Part shown: piece by piece, positions 42,926-55,089 of the stretch | Numbering within the stretch: the first letter of the stretch is position 1 | Layout: each line of letters begins with the position of its first letter | NCBI RefSeq assembly: GCF_013282805.1 | Contig: NZ_CP054038.1 | Location: 1,178,001 to 1,242,000 of the forward strand | Length of the DNA: 64,000 nt | Origin: Microbacterium hominis | Lineage (GTDB): Bacteria > Actinomycetota > Actinomycetes > Actinomycetales > Microbacteriaceae | Direction: 5' to 3' | The notes under the pieces: generated by a model | What the model was told of the DNA's origin: nothing | The model's input: the letters and a program-made list of their open reading frames with translations, nothing else | The model's database searches: none | Made by a program: the position numbers and the translations under genes

Positions 42926-44383
42926 CTATGGCGCCAGCTGCGCCAGCAGGTCGTCGACGCCGATGGAGCATACCCCGATCCGCGAGTCCCCGATGCCGAT
43001 CGGGATCCAGATCACGTCGTCCACGATGAGCCCGCCGCACGAGTACACGACGTTCGGGACGTAGCCGTCGCGACGATCGTCGACCGGCTGCAGGATCGGC
43101 GTGGCCGTCCGCCCGCGCACGATCGTGGGGTCGTGGAGATCGAGGAGCAGCGCTCCGAGGGAGTAACGGCGCATCGGGCCTACGCCATGGACGAGGACGA
43201 TCCAGCCGTGCGGCGTCTCCAGCGGCGGGCCGCAGTTGCCGGTCTGGACGATCTCCCAGGGTTCCACGGGGGCATGGATGATCCCGGCCTGGTGCCAGAT
43301 CACGCCGTCCTGCGACTCGGCCAGCGAGATGCTCTCACCGCCGGTCCGGCTCAGCGCGAGGTACCTGCCGTCCACGGGCCGCGGAAAGAGTGCCATCCCC
43401 TTGTCCTGAGCGGCATCGCCGGTCAGTCGATGGATGTCGAACCCGCGCAGATCCGGGGTGACGATCAGCCGCGGCGCGATGTCGCGCCCGTCATACGCGG
43501 TGTAGGTCCCGCGGTAGTGGACCGCGCCGGCGAGGTCGGTGAATCGCACGAATCGCGCATCCTCCATCCCGTGCCGCTCCTCGGCAGCCACCGGCGTGAG
43601 CACCCGCTGGCTGAGGGCGGTCTCGGGGGCGAACACGGCGCGATAGGCGGAGTTCGCCAGCTGGCGCAGCTCCTCGATATGACCGAAGCTGTCGGCCCGC
43701 CGCGCCAGCGCACTCGGCAAGGCGGCCACCGACGTCTCGATATCCGACGCGGTGAACCGCTCCGGGAGGTCACGCAGCACGCTGTGCGAGATCTCGTTGA
43801 CGATGCCCTCGTCCTCCAGCGCGGCACGGAAGTGCACGGCGCTCCAGTCGCCTTCCTCGATGGTCGCTCGCCAGAGCGGCAGGGTCCGCTCCGCGAAGGT
43901 CCAGCACCGTCCCGGACCGATGGTCGCCTCGGCGAACTCGATCGAGGAGCGGTGGCCCTCTCCGATGGCGCGGAGGGCGATCGCGACGCGCACCTGCCCG
44001 GGCAGAAGTCCCGACTGGTCGGGGTGCTCGACCGCACTCGGGTTGCACAGAGCCGCCCCCTCGACGGCGTATTCCGACGTGAAGCCGGCGCCGAGCACCC
44101 GTCGTCGCTCGAGGCTGACATCGACCGGGTCGGCCAGACGTGAGCTCACGACATCGGCGTTGTCGAGGAACAGCTCGTCGACGCGCGGATGCCGCGCGCC
44201 GAAGTCGCGCGTCAACTCCGCTGCGAGCACAGCGACTCGGTCGGCGGGGATCGCCAGCACGCGCGCGACGATCTCGGCGGCGCGCGAGTGGTGCGCGGAC
44301 CACTCCTCGCCGGGAAGGAACAGCTGCGCGATCACCCGATCCGGCTGCGCTGTCAGCTCCGCCGCGTGCAATCGGGCGGTCAT
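42926..44383 (-). CDS. GH130-family mannoside phosphorylase-like enzyme
   Basis: A 485-residue protein: an N-terminal helical region (about 1-240) and a five-bladed propeller of the GH130 type (about 250-485), with the hallmark RHGMEDARFVRF, then VDGRYLALSRTGGESI, GNCGPPLETPHGWIVLVHG and VVYSCGGL. GH130 enzymes phosphorolyse or hydrolyse beta-mannosides. It overlaps the upstream toroid-protein gene by four bases and ends a glycosyltransferase operon. The N-terminal extension is longer than in minimal GH130 enzymes. Substrate is not known. Confidence 0.87.
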   Translation of the reverse strand: MTARLHAAELTAQPDRVIAQLFLPGEEWSAHHSRAAEIVARVLAIPADRVAVLAAELTRDFGARHPRVDELFLDNADVVSSRLADPVDVSLERRRVLGAGFTSEYAVEGAALCNPSAVEHPDQSGLLPGQVRVAIALRAIGEGHRSSIEFAEATIGPGRCWTFAERTLPLWRATIEEGDWSAVHFRAALEDEGIVNEISHSVLRDLPERFTASDIETSVAALPSALARRADSFGHIEELRQLANSAYRAVFAPETALSQRVLTPVAAEERHGMEDARFVRFTDLAGAVHYRGTYTAYDGRDIAPRLIVTPDLRGFDIHRLTGDAAQDKGMALFPRPVDGRYLALSRTGGESISLAESQDGVIWHQAGIIHAPVEPWEIVQTGNCGPPLETPHGWIVLVHGVGPMRRYSLGALLLDLHDPTIVRGRTATPILQPVDDRRDGYVPNVVYSCGGLIVDDVIWIPIGIGDSRIGVCSIGVDDLLAQLAP

Positions 44384-45414
44384 GGCCGGCTCGACTCACC
44401 GTGCCGGGCCGCCTGCTGGTACGTGCTCAGTGCCGCCAGCGTCGACTCGGCCCCGCGGTTCTCGTTCCGGCCGGCCCGTTCGAGCCCGTCGAAGCCGGCG
44501 CCGGTGCGATCATCGAACATGACCGTGTCGCTGTCGTTGAGCCCGGTGAACCAACGCCAGGCGAGGCCGATCGGGGGGAGCCAGGCGGGATCGTCGGTCA
44601 ACGCGTAGGCGGTGGCGCACGCGTCGGCGAGCGCGGCGAGTTCGATGGGCTGCTGATCGAACGAGGGTCCGCTCTCGCCCGGCCCCCGCCCTCCCGTTCC
44701 CGTCACGGAGAACATGCCGTCCGACATCTCGACCGAGAGCAGGAAGCGCAGCATGCTCACACCCCGCTGCGTGGCATCGGCATCACCGAGGGCATGCCCC
44801 GCGGCGATCAGGGCTTCCGCGATGGAGGCGTTCCCGTAGGCGAGACGGCGCTCGGGCCAGAACCAGGTCGGATCCGCGGGCACGGGCACCGCGGCCACGA
44901 ACTCGCGGAGCAGAGTGCGGGCGATGTGGTCGTCTGCTCTTACGCGCACGACCTGAGCGGCGCCGAGTGCTGCGAAGGCCAGAGTGCGCAGGCTCGTCGA
45001 CCGCGCGCGGGCGGCGATCCGGAACGAGCGCAGCGCGCGAGCGCGGGTCCAGGGATCGCCCCGCTGCGCGGCGATGGTGCCGAGCGCCCACAGCAGCCGT
45101 CCCCACCAGTCGCCCATCGCGGGCGCGTCGGACCAGTCGCCGGCGGCGCTCATGCGATTGTGCGCGAGCCCGTCGGGTCGCACGGCCGATTCGAGGAAGC
45201 GCAGATAGATGACGGCGAGCTCTCGGAGCCCGACGGTCTGCTGCGGTTCACGCGCCACCACGATCAGCGCCCGGGCGACGTCATCGACGCAGTAGCCGTG
45301 CTCGCGGCGCGGTGCGTCGAGGTGAGCGTGCTCGAAGATGCCGTTGTGGTCGGTCAGTGCGCTGAGGTGCCCATACGACGGTGACGGATTCTGCGGACCG
45401 GCTGTGCCCTTCAT
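44380..45414 (-). CDS. Alpha/alpha-toroid protein of a glycan cluster
   Basis: A 344-residue helical-repeat protein resembling the six-hairpin toroid modules that accompany bacterial group 1 glycosyltransferases. The N-terminus has LTDHNGIFEHAHLDAPRREH (residues about 20-39) then GYCVDDVARALIV, and later WFWPERRLAYGNASIAEALI. It may bind or cleave a glycan. No catalytic pair is assigned. ATG at 45414 overlaps the glycosyltransferase stop (ATGA); the longer frame upstream is not supported. Confidence 0.7.
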   Translation of the reverse strand: MKGTAGPQNPSPSYGHLSALTDHNGIFEHAHLDAPRREHGYCVDDVARALIVVAREPQQTVGLRELAVIYLRFLESAVRPDGLAHNRMSAAGDWSDAPAMGDWWGRLLWALGTIAAQRGDPWTRARALRSFRIAARARSTSLRTLAFAALGAAQVVRVRADDHIARTLLREFVAAVPVPADPTWFWPERRLAYGNASIAEALIAAGHALGDADATQRGVSMLRFLLSVEMSDGMFSVTGTGGRGPGESGPSFDQQPIELAALADACATAYALTDDPAWLPPIGLAWRWFTGLNDSDTVMFDDRTGAGFDGLERAGRNENRGAESTLAALSTYQQAARHGESSRP

Positions 45415-46544
45415 GCTGCCTGCGCCGCGACGAGCTCGGCGGTGAGCACGCGGTAGCGGTCGGCGACTGCGGACCATGTCGTCCCGTTCGTCTCGCGCAG
45501 CGCTGCCTCACGCATGCGATCGGCCACTGAGGAGCCGTCGAAGATCTCGCGAAGCGCCCCGGCGATGCTGTCGGGGTCGTGGTGCGGGACGACCGTTCCG
45601 GCTCCGGTCGACAGCAGCTCGACGGCGTGGGGGAATGCCGTGGCGACCACGGGAACGCCGGCCGCGACCGCCTCGGCGAGGACGCCCGAGGTCGCCTGGT
45701 CGACCGAGTCGTACGGCAGCAGCACGGCATCCGCGGAGGCGATGAGAGCGGCCAGCTGCGGCGCGTCGAGGTAGCGCCCGTCGATGCGAAGGGCCGAGCC
45801 GACGTCCAACTCGTCGGCGAGATCGGTGAGCATGGTGCGGTAGCCCTCGCCCGCGTGCGCGAGCACCTTGGGATGTGTCTGCCCGGCGACGACGTACTCG
45901 ACGCGAGGCGTCATGTCCGCGAGCTGCGCGACAGCGCGAATGCCCCATTCGATGCCCTTGCCCGGCGAGAGAAGCCCCCACGTCACGACGCGGCGGCCGC
46001 TGTGGGGCTGCGATTCGCGCAGCCCCACATGGTTCACACCATGCGGGATGACGCGGACGCGAGTGAGATCGACCGCGTAGACCGCGGCGAGGTTGTCGCG
46101 GGCGTGCGTCGTCATGACGACGACGAGGGAGGCCAGTCGACACACGTCTTCGAGCACTTCCCGCTGGTGACGCGTGGGTGTCACGAGCACGGTGTGGAGC
46201 ACGACGATGGTGGGGGTGTCCACCGCGGAGAGCACCTCGAGCACCTGATCTCCGTCGTGTCCGCCGTAGATCCCGTACTCGTGCTGAACGATCGCGACGT
46301 CGCACGCGTTGAGCGCCATGATCGCCCGCATCGTGCTCAGCCGGTCGCCCGCGATGAGGTCGGTGCGCACCGTCGACCGCGCGCGGGTGTCGTGCGGGCT
46401 GCGGTCGGCGGGCTCATCGAGCACCCGCACGATCGTGCCGTGCTCGTCGTCGCCGCGCACGAGGGCGTCGGCGAGGGACTGCGTGAAGGTCGCCAGGCCG
46501 CAGCGGGTCGGCGGAAAGGTACTGAGGAATCCGTAGTGGGTCAC
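45411..46544 (-). CDS. GT4-type glycosyltransferase
   Basis: A 377-residue GT-B glycosyltransferase. The N-terminus YGFLSTFPPTRCGLATFTQS matches a group 1 subfamily linked with toroid and GH130 partners. The nucleotide-sugar side shows WGLLSPGKGIEWGIRAVA and, near the end, the donor-binding LLPYDSVDQATSGVLAEAVA. GTG at 46544 fits the conserved start. It is coupled to the toroid gene by a four-base overlap. Confidence 0.87.
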   Translation of the reverse strand: MTHYGFLSTFPPTRCGLATFTQSLADALVRGDDEHGTIVRVLDEPADRSPHDTRARSTVRTDLIAGDRLSTMRAIMALNACDVAIVQHEYGIYGGHDGDQVLEVLSAVDTPTIVVLHTVLVTPTRHQREVLEDVCRLASLVVVMTTHARDNLAAVYAVDLTRVRVIPHGVNHVGLRESQPHSGRRVVTWGLLSPGKGIEWGIRAVAQLADMTPRVEYVVAGQTHPKVLAHAGEGYRTMLTDLADELDVGSALRIDGRYLDAPQLAALIASADAVLLPYDSVDQATSGVLAEAVAAGVPVVATAFPHAVELLSTGAGTVVPHHDPDSIAGALREIFDGSSVADRMREAALRETNGTTWSAVADRYRVLTAELVAAQAA

Positions 46545-46720
46545 GGTGACGTCTCTCTGGTGATGCCCGCAGCGGATTCGCGGCGGACCATGGCGAGACG
46601 TCTGCCGGCGGCATCCCTCGTGGAACCGCGCCTCCATCGCCACGGTCCGGTCCACGCCCGGGTCTCTGCCCGGACGCTGTGGTCGCACGCTACACCTGCC
46701 ACCTGTGCGTCGGCCCGGGA

Positions 46721-47725
46721 TCAGCGCGCCAGCACGGTCTCGTAGACGGCCAGGTACTGATCGACCATGCGCTCCACGCCGAATCGTGCGACGGCGCGAT
46801 CGTGGACGTCGCCCCGGTCCAGCCCGGTGACGGCGGGGAGGGCCGACACGGCCTCGTCGATCGAGGTCACCGTGCGGCCGGTCACGCCCTCGTCGATGAC
46901 CTCCGCCATCGACCCCCGGCGGTATGCGAGAGCCGGGGTGCCGCACATCATCGATTCCACGACCGAGAGCCCGAACGGCTCGTCGAACTCGATCGGGTGG
47001 AGCAGAGCGGCGGCGTGGCCGAGCACGCGGGCTCGCTCTTCGGCCCCGACGGCGCCGAGGAAGACGACGCGGTCCCCGTCGATGTGGGGCTCCACCTGGT
47101 CGCGGAAGTAGTCCTCGTCCTGGACGAGTCCGCAGATCACGAGGCGGCGCCCCGCGCGCCGCGCGATCGTGATGGCCGCCGCGGTGCCCTTGTCGGGATG
47201 GATGCGGCCGAACGACACGAGGTGGTCGTCGGGCTCGGGCACGTACGGCAGCTCGCCCGGGTCGATCCCGTGGTGGATCGTCGCGAGGTACTCGAGGCCG
47301 GGGGAGCGATCAGCGTCGGAGATGGAGACGAACGCCGAGGCCGAGGCGAGGTACGCGGGAAGGATCGCGGGGCCGGAGAATCCATGGATGGTCGTCACCA
47401 TCGGCGCGTCGCAGTGGGCCCCGAACGCGAGCGGCAGCCAGTCCAGCTGGTTGTGCACGATGTCGAATTCGCCCGAGCGCGCTAGGGCGCGCGCGACGTG
47501 CAGCGCCTCCCACACCCGGCCATCCATCGACGGATCCTCCGCGTAGCCGTGCGGAGCCACCGCATCGAGGTCGCCGTCGGTGATGGAGTCGGCGGTCGCG
47601 AACAGGGTCACATCCACTCCACGGTGCACCAGCCCCTCAGTGAGCAGGCTTGTGACGCGCTCCCACGGCCCGTAGGCCTTCGGAGGTGTCCGCCAGGCGA
47701 TGGGCCCGAGCATCGCGACCCTCAC
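46721..47725 (-). CDS. GT4-family glycosyltransferase
   Basis: A 334-residue GT-B enzyme with the family N-terminus (VRVAMLGPIAWRTPPKAYGP), a Gly-rich acceptor site and the donor-site EX7E region in HPIEFDEPFGLSVVESMMCG. Related proteins synthesise oligosaccharide or glycolipid heads. GTG at 47725 is chosen because homology starts at MLGPIAWRTPP. A 28-codon reading frame upstream stops at this GTG (GTGA), perhaps by chance. It lies 176 bases upstream of the next glycosyltransferase. Confidence 0.88.
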   Translation of the reverse strand: MRVAMLGPIAWRTPPKAYGPWERVTSLLTEGLVHRGVDVTLFATADSITDGDLDAVAPHGYAEDPSMDGRVWEALHVARALARSGEFDIVHNQLDWLPLAFGAHCDAPMVTTIHGFSGPAILPAYLASASAFVSISDADRSPGLEYLATIHHGIDPGELPYVPEPDDHLVSFGRIHPDKGTAAAITIARRAGRRLVICGLVQDEDYFRDQVEPHIDGDRVVFLGAVGAEERARVLGHAAALLHPIEFDEPFGLSVVESMMCGTPALAYRRGSMAEVIDEGVTGRTVTSIDEAVSALPAVTGLDRGDVHDRAVARFGVERMVDQYLAVYETVLAR

Positions 47726-48511: not shown

Positions 48512-48865
48512 TCAGTGCGCCGCTTCGTATGCCTCGATGACGGATGCCGGAACCCGGCCGCGGTCGGAGACCTTGTAGCCGTTCTCCTTCGCCCAATCCC
48601 GGATGCCGGAGTAGTCCTGCTGGCCGGGGCGGCGGCGCTTGCGACCGGAGGATGCCGCGGCCGCGGCAGCGCGCGATGACGAGACGGTCCGCGCGGCGGC
48701 GGTCCACCGCGCGAAGGAATCACGCAGCTCCGCGGCATTCGCGTCACTGAGGTCGATCTCATAGGCGACGCCGTCGAGGGAGAAGAGCACACTCTCCCCC
48801 TCTCCGACTTCGAGGACGGAACCGTCGATATCGTCGACGAGCTGATGCACGATTCTGCGAGCCAT
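48512..48865 (-). CDS. lsr2: Nucleoid-associated protein Lsr2
   Basis: A 117-residue H-NS-like DNA-bridging protein. The N-terminal dimerisation domain (about 1-60, ARRIVHQLVDDIDGS then VAYEIDLSDANAAELRD) is joined by a flexible Ala/Ser linker to a C-terminal DNA-binding domain (DYSGIRDWAKENGYKVSDRG) with the RGR AT-hook-like motif. It silences AT-rich, often foreign, DNA. ATG at 48865 fits the family. The gene contains three copies of the GGATGCCG octamer (or reverse) within about 110 bases. Confidence 0.94.
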   Translation of the reverse strand: MARRIVHQLVDDIDGSVLEVGEGESVLFSLDGVAYEIDLSDANAAELRDSFARWTAAARTVSSSRAAAAAASSGRKRRRPGQQDYSGIRDWAKENGYKVSDRGRVPASVIEAYEAAH

Positions 48866-48883: not shown

Positions 48884-48920
48884 AAAAGTCGCGGGAGATC
48901 GATATTGGATCTCCCGCGAC
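48884..48920 (-). terminator. Intrinsic terminator of the VTC/DUF4956 operon
   Basis: Perfect 13-base stem (48888-48900 with 48908-48920; GTCGCGGGAGATC on the plus strand) and a 7-base loop. On the minus strand it is followed by TTTT. It lies 43 bases after the last gene of the five-gene operon and before lsr2 on the same strand. Confidence 0.88.
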
Positions 48921-48963: not shown

Positions 48964-50667
48964 TCAGGGGCGCCGGCCGCCGGGGCCCCCGCCCATTCCT
49001 CCGCCGGGTCCTCCCATGGCGCTCTGCACGGTGGTCGACGCGGTGGCGCTGACCGCGCTGCCGCCGTCGACGGTCACGGTGTAGGTCTCGCCCTCGGTGA
49101 CGTCGGCGCCGCCGTACACGACGCCGCTGAACGATGAGCCCGCCTCGATCGAGGCGACCACGTCGCCCGCCGCGTTCGTGATGACCACGGTCGAGCCGGC
49201 CGATCCGCTCGCGCTCACGGTCGCGACCGCCACGCCGTCGACGGCGATCGTGCCGTTCGCGTCGACGGTGTTCTCACCGCCGTTGGCCGGACCCACCAGG
49301 GCGAACGTGCCGCCGCTGAGGGTGATCGATCCGTTCGAATCGAGGCCGTCCCCTCCCGCGGTCACCGTCACGGTGCCGCCGGCGATGACGAGCGTTTCGC
49401 CGCTGTCGGCCTCGCCGCCCGCGGCGGCGCCCGCGGCGTTGATGCCGTCATCGCTCGCGATGACGCTGACGGTGCCGCCCGAGATCGCGACATCGGTCGC
49501 CTCGAGGCCCTCATACGACTGTGCGATCTCGACGGTGCCGCCGCGGATCTCGAGCACCTGCTCGGCGTGCACGCCGTCGTCTCCGGTCGAGATGGCAAGG
49601 GTGGCACCGCCGATGCCGACCGAGCCGTCGGAGTGGACCGCGTCGTCGGACGACGAGATGGTGACCTCGCCTCCGTCGAGGGCGATGACCGCTCCCGCGG
49701 CGATGCCCTTGGCGCCGGCATCCGAGGACTGGCCCTCACCGGCGACGATCGAGATCGTGCCGCCGGTGACGACGGCGTCGGTGGCTGCGGCGATGGCGTC
49801 GTCACCGCTGGTCAGCGAGATCTCGCCGCCCTCGATGGCGACGAAGCCCTGGGTCGCGTCAGAATCCTGGTCGCTCTTGAGCGCGTCGCCGCCGGCATCC
49901 ACCGTCACGGTTCCCCCCTCGATGACGAGCGAGTCCTTGCCGCGCAGACCGTCGTCGACGGCGTCCACGGTGATCTCGCCGGAGAGGATCACGAGGTCGT
50001 CGGTGCTCGTGATGCCGTCGTTGCCGTTTCCGCTCACCTCGAGCGCGCCGGAGCCGGAGATCGTGAGGTCGGTGTCGGCGTAGATGGCGGCGTTGGCGTC
50101 GGCGTCGTCGGCGTAGGCGTCGGCGTCGGCGACGCTGTTGGCGGTGCCGGCGGCGAGCACGATCGCGACGTCGTCGGCCGTCTGCACGTCGATGGCGGAG
50201 CCGCCCGATGCCGAGATCGACGCGTCGTCGAGGATCAGCACCACCTGGGCGTTGTCGGGGGCGGCGACCACCACCGAGCCGTCGAGATCCCCATTGAGGC
50301 GGAAGACGCCGGCCTCGGTGATCGTCACGGTCGTGCCGTCGATGCTCACCGCGTCGGAATCGCTCGAGGCCGAGTCGCCATCGAGGACGATGTCGACGGC
50401 GTCGGACTCCGACCATTCGTCATCGCGGACGACCGTCGTGTCGGCGTTCGCGGCGAGCACGGCCTCGGCTGCGAGATCGGAGTCCACGGCGACCGCGGTC
50501 TCGGTCGTCGCCTCGGTCGAGGTGTCGGTCTGGGTCTGGGTGGTCGAGGTGCCGGCCGACGAGGTGTCGGCCGCGACCGCGCAGCCGGCCAGTACGACGC
50601 CGGTGAGGGCGAGGGGCACGGCGGCCAGGGCGATGCGGCGGGGCAGGGTCAGGCGGCGACGGGACAT
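48964..50667 (-). CDS. Carbohydrate-binding-type (DUF4353) repeat lipoprotein
   Basis: A 567-residue exported lipoprotein: signal peptide with lipobox LAGC at about 25-28, a Thr/Ser linker, then many short beta-strand repeats of the form GGxVTVxAGGDGLxSxG, as in right-handed beta-helix proteins annotated as carbohydrate-binding (DUF4353). The C-terminus is Gly-rich (GGPGGGMGGGPGGRRP). It should sit on the outer face of the membrane or wall and may bind a polymer. It is the last gene of the operon and overlaps the VTC gene by 19 bases. Confidence 0.88.
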   Translation of the reverse strand: MSRRRLTLPRRIALAAVPLALTGVVLAGCAVAADTSSAGTSTTQTQTDTSTEATTETAVAVDSDLAAEAVLAANADTTVVRDDEWSESDAVDIVLDGDSASSDSDAVSIDGTTVTITEAGVFRLNGDLDGSVVVAAPDNAQVVLILDDASISASGGSAIDVQTADDVAIVLAAGTANSVADADAYADDADANAAIYADTDLTISGSGALEVSGNGNDGITSTDDLVILSGEITVDAVDDGLRGKDSLVIEGGTVTVDAGGDALKSDQDSDATQGFVAIEGGEISLTSGDDAIAAATDAVVTGGTISIVAGEGQSSDAGAKGIAAGAVIALDGGEVTISSSDDAVHSDGSVGIGGATLAISTGDDGVHAEQVLEIRGGTVEIAQSYEGLEATDVAISGGTVSVIASDDGINAAGAAAGGEADSGETLVIAGGTVTVTAGGDGLDSNGSITLSGGTFALVGPANGGENTVDANGTIAVDGVAVATVSASGSAGSTVVITNAAGDVVASIEAGSSFSGVVYGGADVTEGETYTVTVDGGSAVSATASTTVQSAMGGPGGGMGGGPGGRRP

Positions 50668-51440
50668 GATGCCTCCAGGGTTCGATGGGTCGGGGCGAAG
50701 GGGCCGCGCAGCAGGCGCGCCCAGCGGTTGCGGGGAAGGTCGGGGTTCATGGCGGCCATGCCGGTCGCGTACTTGCTGACGGTGGCCGGCCGGTGGCCGC
50801 GTCGCCAGAGCGCGCGGTCGACCACGGAAGCGGCGGCGCCGGACTTGGTCTCGACGATGGCCATGCCGGGAATCGAGAAGCCGTCGCCGGCGGGGGACAG
50901 CCACGCCAGGTCCGTGTCGACAGTCGCCCGGCCCACGCCGTCGGGGGCGAGCAGGGTCGCGCGGCGGTAGCGGGTGACCAGCGACGGTTCCAGCTCCTCT
51001 GCCCGGTCCGGGGTGACGCCGATCGCGGCGAGGGCCCCGGAGACCTCGCGCCGCGCCTCGGCGGTGAGATCCGCGGTCAGCGCCGGGTCGTAGGGGTCGC
51101 GCTCCTTCACGGTGACCCCGCGGGCGCCGCGGGTCTTGATCTCCAGGAACGCCGACCCCGAGTCGAGGTAGCTCCGGGTGCGCAGCTTGAAGCGGCGCCG
51201 CCGTGGCTGGGCCGCCATGCGGAAGCTCAGCAGATCGGGGGTGTCGAAGTACACGGACTCGTAGGCGAACGTGCGCGCCCCGTCGATCTCGAGCACGCGG
51301 GTCGCGTCGTCGAGATCGCCGAGCAGATCGCCGAGCTCGGCACGCGGCACCACGTACTTGCGGTCGACGCGCGTCAGCAGCGCCGCCTCCGTGACGAGTT
51401 CGTCGAGCGAGACGGGGGCGAACCGGTCGAGGGCGGTCAT
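50649..51440 (-). CDS. VTC-domain polymerase
   Basis: A 263-residue stand-alone VTC domain, the tunnel-shaped fold of eukaryotic polyphosphate polymerase Vtc4. The basic and acidic tunnel residues are retained: TRVDRKYVVPR, ESVYFDTPDL, RRRRFKLRTRSYLDS, FLEIKTR, VTVKERDPY, SLVTRYRRA and MAIVETKSG. It probably polymerises phosphate or a phospho-compound in the cytoplasm. In bacteria such proteins usually lie next to DUF4956 and surface proteins, as here. ATG at 51440 overlaps the DUF4956 stop. Confidence 0.9.
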   Translation of the reverse strand: MTALDRFAPVSLDELVTEAALLTRVDRKYVVPRAELGDLLGDLDDATRVLEIDGARTFAYESVYFDTPDLLSFRMAAQPRRRRFKLRTRSYLDSGSAFLEIKTRGARGVTVKERDPYDPALTADLTAEARREVSGALAAIGVTPDRAEELEPSLVTRYRRATLLAPDGVGRATVDTDLAWLSPAGDGFSIPGMAIVETKSGAAASVVDRALWRRGHRPATVSKYATGMAAMNPDLPRNRWARLLRGPFAPTHRTLEASCPVAA

Positions 51441-52027
51441 CGCGCGCTCCGGACGGGGGTGGATGCCGCCACCGGCGCGCGCTCGGCGCGGAAGCGCACG
51501 TCGACCAGCGTCGTGTCGTTGACGAGGTCGAGGTCCTGCACGGTGAGCGAGGTGACGGTGGCGCCCAGCCGCTCCTCGAGCTCGGCGCGCAGCTCGTTCT
51601 CGTCGGTGATGGCGCGATCGAGGCGCACGTTCTGATGCCGGCTGCGCGAGAGGAAGCGCGGGTGGTCGGCGGCCCACATCACGACGAGCACGAGGGCGAT
51701 GAGTCCGGCGACCGGCCACGGGTCGGTGTGGGGGAGGCCCGCCATGAGTCCGATCGCGAGCGCGGCGAAGTAATAGGCCACCTCTCGCTGGGAGATCTCC
51801 GACGAGCGCAGCCGGATGATCGAGAGCACACCGAACAGACCCAGGCCCAGACCCAGTGCGACCTCGGCCGTGCCGAGCACGGCGGCGACGGCCATCACGC
51901 CGACGTTGACGCCCAGGAAGGCGACGACGAGGTCGCGGCGGTGGTGGCGGCGGTAGTAGAGGCCGAGGCTCAGAATGAGGGCCGCGATCAGGTCGATCGC
52001 GATGAGCGCGAGGGCGCTGACGGTCAT
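51437..52027 (-). CDS. DUF4956 membrane protein
   Basis: A 196-residue membrane protein with about four transmembrane helices (about 3-25, 31-50, 53-72, 95-115) and a cytoplasmic C-terminal domain of about 75 residues (LRAELEERLGATVTSLTV). The loop SIIRLRSSEISQREVAYYF is typical of DUF4956. Function unknown; constant association with VTC-domain proteins suggests it is the membrane partner or channel for the VTC product. ATG at 52027 overlaps the GT2-GtrA stop. Confidence 0.9.
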   Translation of the reverse strand: MTVSALALIAIDLIAALILSLGLYYRRHHRRDLVVAFLGVNVGVMAVAAVLGTAEVALGLGLGLFGVLSIIRLRSSEISQREVAYYFAALAIGLMAGLPHTDPWPVAGLIALVLVVMWAADHPRFLSRSRHQNVRLDRAITDENELRAELEERLGATVTSLTVQDLDLVNDTTLVDVRFRAERAPVAASTPVRSAR

Positions 52028-53169
52028 GGGGTCCTCCCGGTCGTGATGGGGTGTGATTCCATTCGAGTCGGGCTCCCTATGCGGTTCCTATGACGCGCGT
52101 CTGCCTGGTCTCCGAATTCCGAAGGCCGTTCGGAAGCGCTGGCGCCGGCACGGAACACGAAGGTGCGCTGCACCCCGTAGCTCGTCACGAACAGCACGAG
52201 CTCGGTCGCGATCTTCGCGACCACGAGGGGAACGCCGACCTCGGTGAGGGCCTGCATCCATACGATGTTCGACGCCAGCAGAGCCACCGCCAGCAGGCCG
52301 TAGCGCACCGCCTGTCCGGCGGCGCCCCGGCCGTGCCGGCGGAAGACCACGCGCCGGTTGACGGCGAAGTTCGCCGAGGCGCTCACGAGGCGTGCCACCA
52401 CGATCGACCAGACCAGGGAGCCGGTCAGCGCGGTGAGGGCCAGCAGCACGAGCGTGTCGATGAGGAAGGCGAGCATCGACGAGCCGGCGAACAGCACGAC
52501 CGGCAGCACCACGCGCGCCGAGTCGATGAGCGGGCGGAAGTGGCTGGACGCATTGTCCTCGAGGTACACCGTCTCGATCGGCACCTCGCGTGTCCGGATC
52601 CCGGCGCCTCGGCAGCGCAGCAGCATGTTCTGCTCGTACTCGAACCGGTCGCCGGGAACCTGCAGCATCCACGCCAGGTGAGGGGAGGGGATGCCGCGCA
52701 GCCCCGTCTGCGTGTCGCTCAGCGTCCACCCCGCGGCAACCCGGAACAGACCGCGCGAGACGGCGTTGCCGGCGCGGCTGCGCAGCGGCACGGTGCCGGT
52801 GAACCCCCGGCATCCGAGGATCAGCGTCGGCGCACCCGTCGCGGCATCCTCGCGCAGCTCGTCGGCAACCCGGAGGATGTCGGCCGCGGTGTGCTGGCCG
52901 TCCGCGTCGGCGGTGACGACACCTTCACCCGGGTGCGCGGCGAGCGCGTAGGCGAAGCCGATTTTCAGGGCCGCGCCCTTGCCGCCGTTGGCGTCATGGC
53001 GCAGCACGACGGCGCCCGCGCCGGCGGCGGCATCGAACACCGACGCGAAGGCGGATCCGCTGCCGTCGTCGACCACGACGATCTCCACGTCGGGGTCGGC
53101 CGCCGTCAGCGCGGCGACGAGCGCCACCAGGCGCGCGCCGGGCTCGTAGGCGGGGATGAGCACGATCAC
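52024..53169 (-). CDS. GT2 glycosyltransferase-GtrA fusion
   Basis: A 381-residue fusion. Residues 1-210 are a GT-A family 2 glycosyltransferase with VVVDDGS, the DAD motif in VVTADADGQHT, and GLRGIPSPHLAWML. Residues about 215-345 are a four-helix GtrA domain (AFLIDTLVLLALTALTG onward), which flips lipid-linked sugars. The polyprenyl-sugar synthase and the flippase are therefore one polypeptide. GTG at 53169 is six bases after the upstream stop. Confidence 0.9.
   Translation of the reverse strand: MIVLIPAYEPGARLVALVAALTAADPDVEIVVVDDGSGSAFASVFDAAAGAGAVVLRHDANGGKGAALKIGFAYALAAHPGEGVVTADADGQHTAADILRVADELREDAATGAPTLILGCRGFTGTVPLRSRAGNAVSRGLFRVAAGWTLSDTQTGLRGIPSPHLAWMLQVPGDRFEYEQNMLLRCRGAGIRTREVPIETVYLEDNASSHFRPLIDSARVVLPVVLFAGSSMLAFLIDTLVLLALTALTGSLVWSIVVARLVSASANFAVNRRVVFRRHGRGAAGQAVRYGLLAVALLASNIVWMQALTEVGVPLVVAKIATELVLFVTSYGVQRTFVFRAGASASERPSEFGDQADARHRNRIGSPTRMESHPITTGRTP
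52076..52092 (-). promoter_or_regulatory. CATAGG direct repeat upstream of DUF4956
   Basis: On the minus strand two CATAGG hexamers are separated by five bases (period 11), ending 48 bases before the DUF4956 start. The same arrangement, with a shared CGC before one copy, occurs at 54203-54219. Tandem hexamers with 11-base period are typical of OmpR/PhoB-type regulators. Confidence 0.6.
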
Positions 53170-53175
53170 GGTCGG

Positions 53176-54159
53176 TCACCCCGCGATGTAGAGGATGTCG
53201 CTGGTGCCGCGCTCGCCGCCGTTGGAGGGGCTGTTGACCACCTCGCCGTCGAAGTACATCGTCGAGGAGCCTCCGCCGTCGAGGTTGTAGGCGGTCGTGG
53301 CCCCGAGGTCGATCATGATGTCGGCGAGCTCGGTGAGGGTCACGCCCTCGCTGTAGCCGGTCTGGCGGCCGTCGACGACGACGAAGACCAGGTGGTTCTC
53401 GTCGATCACGCCGACGGCGGTGCGCGGCTGGTCGCCCTGGATGGAGTGATTCCCGAAGTTGGTGTCGATCTCGACGTCTTCGATGCCGTCGACGGCCGTG
53501 CCCTCCTCGACGATCGCCGGTCCGAAGCTCAGCGTGTTCCACGCGCCGTCGGCGAGCAGCTCGTCGGCGCTCGTCTGCGTCTCGTCGTACACCGCGACGG
53601 TGCCGTCGGCGTAGAAGACCAGCCCGTCACGTGCGCCGTCGTCACGGTAGACGACGCCGTTGCGGATCACGATGCCGGTGTCGCGGAAGCCGTAGTAGTC
53701 GCCGTTGATCGCGAACACCGCGCCGTTGTCGGCGGCGATCTGGCTGGTGAGCTCGGTGATGTTCTCCCCGAACTGATCCTTCGCGAAGGCGCTGCGAAGG
53801 TCGGTGGCATCGCCGAGGACCACGTCGGCGACGTAGTACGTCACCGTCTCCGATCCGCTGCCGGTGGTGACCGTCGACAGCTCGATCGAGGTCTCGCCCT
53901 CGGTGTAGCCGGTGTCGGTCGTGACGGCGGCGCTCGCGGAGGCGGAGTCGCCCTGATCGGCCGCGGTGGCGCCCGAATCGGCCTCGGCGCTCGACGCGTC
54001 GGAGGCGGAGATCTCCGCCTCGTACGCGGAGACGTCGGAGATCTCGACGTGCTCCACGAGGTAGCGGTCGGCCGCCCAGGCCGCGGCGCCGCCGGCGGAG
54101 AGGGCGACGACGAGGCCGGAGACGATGAGCGTGTTGCGTGTGCGATGACGAAGCGGCAT
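53176..54159 (-). CDS. Phosphodiester glycosidase-family (NAGPA-like) exported protein
   Basis: A 327-residue exported protein. A basic N-terminus with one hydrophobic helix (about 11-30) is followed by an Ala/Ser/Asp/Glu linker and the phosphodiester glycosidase (DUF2233) domain (AINGDYYGFRDTGIVIRNG, RTAVGVIDENHLVFVVVDGR, YNLDGGGSSTMYFDG). The human relative removes GlcNAc from a phosphodiester-linked sugar. An extracellular role on a sugar-phosphate polymer is plausible. It is the first gene of the five-gene operon. Confidence 0.88.
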   Translation of the reverse strand: MPLRHRTRNTLIVSGLVVALSAGGAAAWAADRYLVEHVEISDVSAYEAEISASDASSAEADSGATAADQGDSASASAAVTTDTGYTEGETSIELSTVTTGSGSETVTYYVADVVLGDATDLRSAFAKDQFGENITELTSQIAADNGAVFAINGDYYGFRDTGIVIRNGVVYRDDGARDGLVFYADGTVAVYDETQTSADELLADGAWNTLSFGPAIVEEGTAVDGIEDVEIDTNFGNHSIQGDQPRTAVGVIDENHLVFVVVDGRQTGYSEGVTLTELADIMIDLGATTAYNLDGGGSSTMYFDGEVVNSPSNGGERGTSDILYIAG

Positions 54160-54231: not shown

Positions 54232-55089
54232 TCAGGGGAGGATGCCGGCGCGGCGCGCCTTCGCCACCGCGGCGTGCCGGGTCGAAGCGTCGAGCTTGGC
54301 CATCGCGGCCTGCAGATAGGACTTGACCGTGCCCTCGCGCAGCGCCAGCGTCTGCGCGATCTCCGCGTTGGTCGCCCCCAGCGCCGCGCACGCGAGCACG
54401 TCGGTCTCTCGCGGCGAGAGCTTCACGTCGGCGGCGACCGGCTCCTCGGTGTCGCTGCGCGAGAGCGCCGCGAGCTTCTGCTCGAGGCTGGCGAGCCGCG
54501 CCTTCACGTCGTCGTCGGCGATGGCCGCGCCGATGCGCCGCAGCTCGGCGTAGCTCTCGCGCAGCTCTTCGCGCACCGAGGGTGCCATGGCCGGCGCATC
54601 GACCGGCACCGGCATCCGCGCCAGACGCCGCTGCACCTCGTCGCGCACGCGCAGTTCAGTGGCCAGCTCCTCGGCCACCGCGAACGCCGGGCGGGCGACG
54701 ACGTCGCCGACGGGGGTCTGCGCCCACGAGCCGCAGTAGAGCATTCCGCGCGCTCGGCCCGAGACCATCACCGGCACGGCGAACAGCGTGGCGATGCCTT
54801 CGCCGAGCACCGCCCGGTCGTAGTCGTGCGTGATGCTGCGCGACGAGCGGTAGTCCAGTGCGAGGCGCGGGCGGTTCTCGACGAGGGCGCGCCCGCCCAG
54901 TCCCCGCTGGGCGTGCACCACGAGCCCCTCGAGGTTGCGCGTGCGTGCGCCGGCGACCGAGGTCACGTGGATCGCGGCATCCTTCTCGAGCCCGCCGAAG
55001 GCGAGGGGGAAGCGGGTGCGTCGTACGAGATCGGCGACCGCCTGGGCGACGATGCGCGCGTCGGAATCGATGCCCGCCGCTGCGTCCAC
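54232..55089 (-). CDS. RamA-like LuxR regulator with GAF domain
   Basis: A 285-residue transcription regulator: GAF-like N-terminal domain (about 15-150) and a C-terminal LuxR helix-turn-helix (about 220-275: LSPRETDVLACAALGATNAE onward). Length and layout match RamA of Corynebacterium, a regulator of acetate metabolism. It is divergent from the DUF485/acetate-symporter genes, which RamA controls in Corynebacterium. GTG start at 55089. The five-gene VTC operon lies 72 bases downstream on the same strand. Confidence 0.85.
   Translation of the reverse strand: MDAAAGIDSDARIVAQAVADLVRRTRFPLAFGGLEKDAAIHVTSVAGARTRNLEGLVVHAQRGLGGRALVENRPRLALDYRSSRSITHDYDRAVLGEGIATLFAVPVMVSGRARGMLYCGSWAQTPVGDVVARPAFAVAEELATELRVRDEVQRRLARMPVPVDAPAMAPSVREELRESYAELRRIGAAIADDDVKARLASLEQKLAALSRSDTEEPVAADVKLSPRETDVLACAALGATNAEIAQTLALREGTVKSYLQAAMAKLDASTRHAAVAKARRAGILP

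Follow-up and report, generated by a model that had tools for sequence, protein, structure and literature searches.

The Microbacterium hominis stretch analyzed here (64,000 nucleotides; NCBI RefSeq assembly GCF_013282805.1, contig NZ_CP054038.1, positions 1,178,001 to 1,242,000 of the forward strand; "the window" below) carries a block of five genes on its minus strand at 48964-54159. The genome, G000 in our samples, is one 3.9-Mb contig. In the order of the minus strand, the genes are NAGPA, GT2-GtrA, DUF4956, VTC, and a Cthe_2159 lipoprotein, followed by a terminator (Pfam E-values and bit scores in parentheses):

53176..54159, minus strand: NAGPA-family phosphodiester glycosidase-like protein, 327 amino acids (PF09992, 4.9e-40), with an N-terminal hydrophobic segment recognized by eye
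52024..53169, minus strand: fusion of a GT2 glycosyltransferase and a GtrA membrane domain, 381 amino acids (PF00535, 1.3e-13; PF04138, 4.4e-14)
51437..52027, minus strand: DUF4956 membrane protein, 196 amino acids (PF16316, 2.2e-65; 219.9 bits against a cut-off of 30.6)
50649..51440, minus strand: VTC-domain (TTM tunnel) protein, 263 amino acids, the putative catalytic core (PF09359, 5.8e-24; 85.4 bits against a cut-off of 23)
48964..50667, minus strand: Cthe_2159-family beta-helix lipoprotein, 567 amino acids, the proposed exported partner (PF14262, 3.4e-80)
48888..48920, minus strand: intrinsic terminator hairpin with a 13-bp stem and a 7-nt loop, then UUUU (folding energy against shuffled sequences)

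A preliminary description of this stretch had listed five minus-strand genes packed within 19 nt of each other, followed by one terminator. The junctions agree with this: a gap of 6 nt separates NAGPA from GT2-GtrA, and the next three junctions are overlaps of 4 nt (GT2-GtrA/DUF4956), 4 nt (DUF4956/VTC), and 19 nt (VTC/lipoprotein). All five family assignments were likewise recovered by Pfam, and the terminator was confirmed at -34.6 kcal/mol (z -8.7), with none of 200 shuffles equally stable; a consensus terminator scan missed the 48920-48888 hairpin and the folding computation found it. The lipoprotein has a lipobox, LAGC, recognized by eye. No CotH kinase had been noticed with the block, and the CotH family (PF08757) indeed has no match anywhere in this genome. 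The block is of interest as a VTC system in bacteria whose exported partner alternates.

The DUF4956-VTC pair and its exported partners

We searched 246 genomes of the phylum, 120 of the family, and 14 controls with a match threshold of E 0.001, and we examined 102 loci (59 named, 17 from the family, and 26 from the phylum), 99 of which contain VTC. Genomes and loci carry G and L labels, respectively. The named loci come from a scan of one genome per species that was seeded by exact peptide patterns of the window VTC and in which 59 of 181 candidate stretches were confirmed; this seeding means that the scan favors near relatives of the window protein. Two pairs of the named loci share an assembly (L038/L040 and L085/L094).

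DUF4956 and VTC were found in an identical set of 25 of the 246 phylum genomes (profile search; Fisher 9e-35, a value that, like our other Fisher values, ignores the relatedness of genomes), with the DUF4956 match of one of them, G343, lying under the curated cut-off. In the family sample, all 15 genomes with VTC fell within the 18 with DUF4956. The other three were G107, with a strong DUF4956 match, and two with weak ones; leaving out these two, G100 at 47 bits (above the cut-off) and G091 at 21 bits (below it), gives the 16 genomes counted as strong. The same three of the 14 controls carried both families, namely Bacteroides ihuae, Corynebacterium glutamicum, and Methanosarcina acetivorans, which by name represent three phyla, one of them archaeal; each also has CotH or Cthe_2159. 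The preliminary description had taken co-occurrence confined to close relatives as a sign against its proposal, and for these two families the phylum and control counts show co-occurrence beyond them.

The two genes are also physically coupled. In 96 of the 99 VTC loci, DUF4956 lies no more than 4 kb from VTC, the exceptions being L091, L098, and L121, the last a 5.9-kb contig on which Pfam does show a weak DUF4956. Among the 76 loci L020-L095 and the window, 65 of 67 same-strand junctions were 25 nt or shorter, and all 60 that were printed were 4-nt overlaps. The nearest relatives of the window VTC, with one genome per species, are Microbacterium proteins 68-76% identical to it. Judged by their co-inheritance and gene coupling, DUF4956 and VTC very likely function as a single unit.

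Plasmid carriage of DUF4956 was considered and rejected, as one of 72,556 plasmid records matched, partially, and on an 11.9-Mb record. In L034 (G107), Cthe_2159 directly follows DUF4956 and VTC is missing, an arrangement that could show which part works alone. The DUF4956 match is in two pieces in Cellulomonas edaphi (L080, 7403-7944), and in G218 (L112) a stop falls inside both the DUF4956 and the VTC matches, through either sequencing error or decay.

The pair is regularly accompanied by one of two exported protein families. Over the 99 VTC loci, the partner within 4 kb was Cthe_2159 in 59, CotH in 23, both in one, and neither in 16. At the level of genomes, at least one of the two families was present in 24 of the 25 phylum genomes with VTC versus two of the 221 others; CotH occurred in 18 of the 246 genomes, 17 of them with VTC, and Cthe_2159 in 12, 11 of them with VTC. 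In the family sample, Cthe_2159 was found in 14 genomes, all with strong DUF4956, and CotH in six, two of which (G067 and G097) lack VTC. The partner label changes at least six times between Cthe_2159 and CotH on a quick tree of 96 of the 99 VTC proteins, which has four long end branches and is uncertain at 38 of its 93 inner branches (L110, L112, and L115 were left out for short or split VTC matches). In the printed rows, Cthe_2159 follows the pair on its strand, except in L096, where it is upstream. In six of the 13 loci with CotH downstream of the pair (L055, L058, L072, L098, L103, L105), CotH directly follows VTC, in the slot that the beta-helix lipoprotein occupies in the window.

Most of the 16 loci without a nearby partner fall into recognizable groups. 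Seven belong to Glycomyces, and the genome of one of these, L094, also has a CotH locus (L085, Glycomyces tenuis). Four (L056, L104, L118, L121) are on contigs of 5.9 to 23 kb, with G227 and G266 among them carrying CotH on another short contig. In G019 and G082 the partner is elsewhere in the genome, the genome of L030 (G085) has neither family, and L089 and L091 are unexplained. The Glycomyces group (L087-L095) comprises seven DUF4956-VTC loci without CotH or Cthe_2159; L087, the only one of them scanned, has a sulfotransferase and a GT2 upstream.

The window lipoprotein matched a solved relative, 4peu/4phb, at 6.1e-32, and Cthe_2159 of C. thermocellum has been reported to bind cellulose or acid sugars (PMC6712302). 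Ten proteins were scanned for domains, five of them CotH: three had cellulose-binding CBM2 and Fn3-like modules, one had CBM2 alone, and one had neither. By simple hydropathy, rather than a signal-peptide predictor, a hydrophobic N-terminal segment was seen on 31 of 33 CotH frames, including those of G067 and G097; of the two exceptions, L112 begins too close to the domain and L124 stops at the edge of its contig. Given the co-inheritance and the coupling, the exported partner likely depends on the DUF4956-VTC unit.

We found no paper linking VTC or DUF4956 with Cthe_2159 among the open-licence papers that our search covered. Cthe_2159 and CotH are among 40 Pfam domains reported from anaerobic gut fungi and not from their chytrid relatives (PMC6712302), and this co-presence is an independent pairing of the two families. 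A locus from a distant family, L115 (G305), holds CotH, two Cthe_2159, a split or odd VTC, DUF4956, and NAGPA within about 8 kb.

The VTC tunnel and the DUF4956 membrane protein

A profile built from 43 VTC proteins matches yeast VTC4 in the PDB at 4e-7. In an alignment of 97 rows mapped to VTC4 numbering (L110, L112, and L115 again omitted), K200, R264, R266, E279, K281, K294, R361, and R373 were matched in every row, and E426, K428, S457, and K458 in 96, the remaining row having a gap. These are tunnel residues of VTC4. One of them, K458, is described as catalytic (PMC4641920). Unconserved tunnel residues would have spoken against the preliminary description, and 12 VTC4 positions are instead kept in 96 to 97 of the 97 rows.

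That description had also proposed a structure prediction of the tunnel. The AlphaFold2 model (mean pLDDT 92.5) has eight tunnel strands, and the 13 best Foldseek matches in the PDB, at E 2e-11 to 1.3e-9, are all VTC subunits; TTM hydrolases, ygiF among them, rank next. Vtc2 and Vtc3, which are non-catalytic in yeast, are among these 13, so the fold by itself is no proof of a polymerase.

TTM tripolyphosphatases such as AtTTM3 and E. coli ygiF share the tunnel fold (Foldseek E 1.3e-8 for ygiF, 5a60) and the central basic residues with the window protein. They differ from it in an acidic patch: in the hydrolases, a patch of glutamates is reported to replace basic residues of Vtc4 (PMC4641920), whereas the window VTC family has two basic residues and one D/E at the three ygiF-type positions in either of two registers, both inferred from motif spacing. 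This mixed, intermediate state of the patch keeps a hydrolase among the functions to be considered.

The AlphaFold2 model of DUF4956 (mean pLDDT 85, pTM 0.66) has five helices and then a beta-alpha-beta-beta C-terminal domain. An R72-x-R74 motif at the end of helix 3 is nearly invariant over 98 rows (both arginines occur in 99% of main-group rows and in every deep-group row). Assignment to a known fold was rejected, the best Foldseek match having an E of only 0.07; some of the weak matches of the C-terminal tail are ACT proteins.

These features allow a second explanation, in which VTC is a tunnel hydrolase or triphosphate sensor rather than a polymerase: it and the ACT-like tail of DUF4956 would monitor nucleotide or phosphate status and adjust how much surface polysaccharide is made, and no polyphosphate would be exported. 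The D or E at residue 26 in 96 of 97 rows recalls the acidic patch of the hydrolases (PMC4641920). The DUF4956 tail has weak ACT-like matches, SIR_1592 of Streptococcus intermedius has a published ACT assignment, and mutants in that organism make more Pel polysaccharide without SIR_1592 and less without CotH, as regulators would (PMC12345266). However, ygiF-type hydrolases have glutamate at two other positions where the protein here carries basic residues (K199, and R24 or K28 depending on the register), VTC subunits are the closest matches in both sequence and fold, and the regular company of an exported protein is left unexplained. We regard this explanation as unlikely, if the strongest of the competitors.

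Known systems and a proposed envelope phosphate system

In streptococci, clostridia, and bifidobacteria, CotH, a poly-phosphate polymerase, and DUF4956 are reported as accessory genes next to pel (PMC7112168). The Gram-positive accessory set consists of cotH, the poly-phosphate polymerase, DUF4956, and DUF4832, and is SIR_1591-1594 in S. intermedius (PMC7112168, PMC12345266). SIR_1592 is described as a membrane protein with MgtC-like and ACT parts (PMC12345266), and from its position and this description we take it as the DUF4956 homologue. Deletion of SIR_1592 or of the CotH gene SIR_1594 reduced aggregation and altered Pel (PMC12345266). The preliminary description held that DUF4956 has no known function, a statement that needs qualifying in view of the deletion phenotype of this presumed homologue.

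The authors of that work state that they failed to find the synteny of the three genes outside Pel (PMC12345266). The same DUF4956-VTC pair with CotH occurs in our loci, with the differences that the window partner is Cthe_2159 and that the genomes searched here carry the set without PelG over the cut-off: PelG (PF16933) passed it in none of 46 genomes, G000 included, 39 of which have DUF4956 or VTC, and the one sub-threshold match was in G001, which lacks VTC. The module thus does not need Pel in those genomes. Dependence on Pel was rejected on this count, which excludes the named genomes of L037-L095; Pel-linked bifidobacterial copies have been reported (PMC7112168).

Another relative is the NELoc-2 locus of Clostridium perfringens (CP4_0460-0468), in which each of two VTC genes is followed by a membrane protein annotated as tubulin/FtsZ, which may be DUF4956, and then come CotH and a putative glycosyl transferase (PMC2879425). 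It differs in its duplicated core, and the available text describes it as an annotated locus only and names no Cthe_2159 or NAGPA (PMC2879425).

The yeast VTC complex resembles the window pair in its conserved tunnel residues, in providing the best fold matches, in having a membrane partner, and in synthesis proposed for the cytosolic side. It differs in that the 263-residue window protein has no SPX domain (Pfam shows VTC only), in that the Vtc membrane domains are replaced by DUF4956, a separate five-helix protein for which no fold match was detected, and in that beyond the membrane lies the cell exterior, with an exported partner, rather than a vacuole. Without SPX and with DUF4956 as its partner, the bacterial system may work like a VTC complex and is not one.

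The reading that we tentatively prefer, with confidence a little short of even, is an envelope phosphate system in which VTC makes polyphosphate, DUF4956 passes the chain out, and an exported partner binds or uses it. VTC, a cytosolic tunnel enzyme, would act like yeast VTC4 and polymerize the phosphate of ATP into polyphosphate; DUF4956, a five-helix membrane protein whose C-terminal domain is soluble, would hold VTC at the membrane and pass the chain or control its passage; and outside, the chain would be bound or used by the Cthe_2159 lipoprotein in the window and by the CotH kinase elsewhere. This reading builds on the co-inheritance, the gene coupling, the alternation of partners, the conserved tunnel residues, and the fold. 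From these we infer the polymerase activity, the export, and the roles of the partners: polyphosphate is the suggested output because of the homology to VTC, and the chain would have to cross the membrane because the partner is located outside.

Several observations weigh against this proposal. On the enzyme side, VTC4 R253 has no sequence counterpart, K455 is replaced by R in 85 of the 97 rows, and the position of VTC4 T198 is acidic, as in hydrolases (D26 in the window; D in 83 rows, E in 13, T in one). The parts of the literature available to our search held no enzymatic evidence for any bacterial VTC protein, and the text available on S. intermedius reports no change upon deletion of SIR_1593, the polyphosphate polymerase homologue (PMC12345266). 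The DUF4956 model has no solved-structure match at E 0.001 or better, and its suggested role as a channel is an analogy with the VTC complex. Exceptions also exist among genomes and loci. G107 has DUF4956 and Cthe_2159 and no VTC match in its genome, and no DUF4956 stands beside VTC in L091 or in L098, the VTC-CotH locus of G323. CotH occurs without VTC in G276 and, with signal-like N-termini, in G067 and G097, and Cthe_2159 does so in G131. Conversely, G085 (L030) has the pair and neither partner family, and L089 has no partner within 4 kb. Finally, the site of CotH varies over its 23 loci: in 13 it immediately follows the pair in the same orientation, in eight it is divergent and upstream, in one it is upstream on the same strand, and in one it is convergent.

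A bolder extension of the envelope phosphate system, and to us a long shot, is that exported polyphosphate serves as a phosphoryl donor or ligand for envelope proteins that have no access to ATP, such that exported CotH kinases would phosphorylate surface glycans or proteins and Cthe_2159 lipoproteins would bind the resulting anionic material. CotH of B. subtilis works in the mother cell, and the B. subtilis control has a CotH match and no match to VTC or DUF4956, which is in line with this idea; G067 and G097, with CotH and no VTC, and the lack of a reported VTC-deletion phenotype in S. intermedius speak against it. If true, it would mean an envelope phosphorylation economy running on exported polyphosphate and a bacterial VTC-type route besides PPK. 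Recent papers attribute bacterial polyphosphate synthesis to PPK enzymes and describe VTC as eukaryotic (PMC13318637, PMC10657179). The testable questions that open here are whether there is a second type of polyphosphate polymerase in bacteria, what the function of DUF4956 is, and how extracellular CotH kinases are supplied with phosphate. The association also gives a guilt-by-association handle on Cthe_2159, described as a biomass-binding domain, and on the accessory genes of Pel loci.

The sugar module and genes around the block

NAGPA and GT2-GtrA form a second module. The window NAGPA has distant sequence matches to the NAGPA crystal structures 6pki/6pkg and to 6ozd, and its glycosidase activity is predicted from the profile. 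GT2-GtrA has a weak likeness to polyprenyl-phosphate sugar synthases, far under the NCBIfam cut-offs, and no PDB sequence match at E 0.001. Close homologues of the two proteins occur in the same eight of the 120 family genomes, all with strong DUF4956 and Cthe_2159, and one of the eight, G107, lacks VTC. These counts include NAGPA matches with E < 1e-90, leaving out four genomes with weaker ones (E 3e-13 to 4e-10), and GT2-GtrA matches above 200 bits, leaving out 107 genomes with weaker GT2 matches. The two genes are adjacent in seven of the eight genomes and at contig ends in the eighth, G018. They lie away from DUF4956 in G058, where they adjoin CotH, in G107, where they adjoin a second Cthe_2159, and in G082 and G093. 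The full set of five families was found together in 17 Microbacterium, four Cellulomonas, and one Rothia among the 59 named loci. This clade has added the sugar module to the core. We suggest that GT2-GtrA builds and flips a lipid-linked sugar and that NAGPA cuts phosphodiesters of sugars, which would couple the processing of surface glycan to that of phosphate.

The preliminary description had seen the block as a likely machine for making, moving, and trimming a (sugar-)phosphate polymer at the cell surface. In this reading, VTC would give activated phosphate or a primer, GT2-GtrA would add sugar, NAGPA would edit phosphodiester-linked sugar, and the beta-helix protein would hold the product at the surface. 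The co-inheritance of NAGPA and GT2-GtrA within DUF4956 genomes is consistent with this, as are the 22 of 59 named loci with both genes within 6 kb of VTC and the NAGPA near VTC, DUF4956, CotH, and Cthe_2159 in the distant family of L115. The remaining 37 named loci, however, have the core without both sugar genes nearby, which makes sugar transfer unlikely as the basic function of the core; the module is elsewhere in the genome in the four genomes with detached copies, and Pfam recognized no polymerase or ligase for a sugar-phosphate chain in the block. We therefore consider this explanation improbable.

That the families merely travel together in a surface-glycan island, without taking part in one process, seems highly improbable: their patchy spread (25 of the 246 phylum genomes and 18 of the 120 family genomes have DUF4956) and the GT2 and sulfotransferase beside the core in the one scanned second locus of Glycomyces (L087) would fit islands, but G082 and G019 retain a detached partner elsewhere in the genome, NAGPA-GT2-GtrA is confined to DUF4956 genomes even when distant, and the 4-nt DUF4956-VTC overlap is common across families.

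The surroundings of the block include further genes on the minus strand. Upstream, a RamA-like GAF-LuxR regulator lies at 54232-55089. It was dropped as a member of the operon, as its homologue is about 4 kb upstream in seven Microbacterium loci with other genes intervening before NAGPA; such genes may have been lost in the window. Right past the terminator, downstream of the block, is an Lsr2 gene (48512-48865), and an Lsr2-like protein, recognized by eye only, adjoins DUF4956-VTC in L022 as well. A glycan cluster near the block (42926-47713) encodes a GH130-family protein, a 344-residue protein that matches no Pfam family, and two GT1/GT4-type glycosyltransferases.

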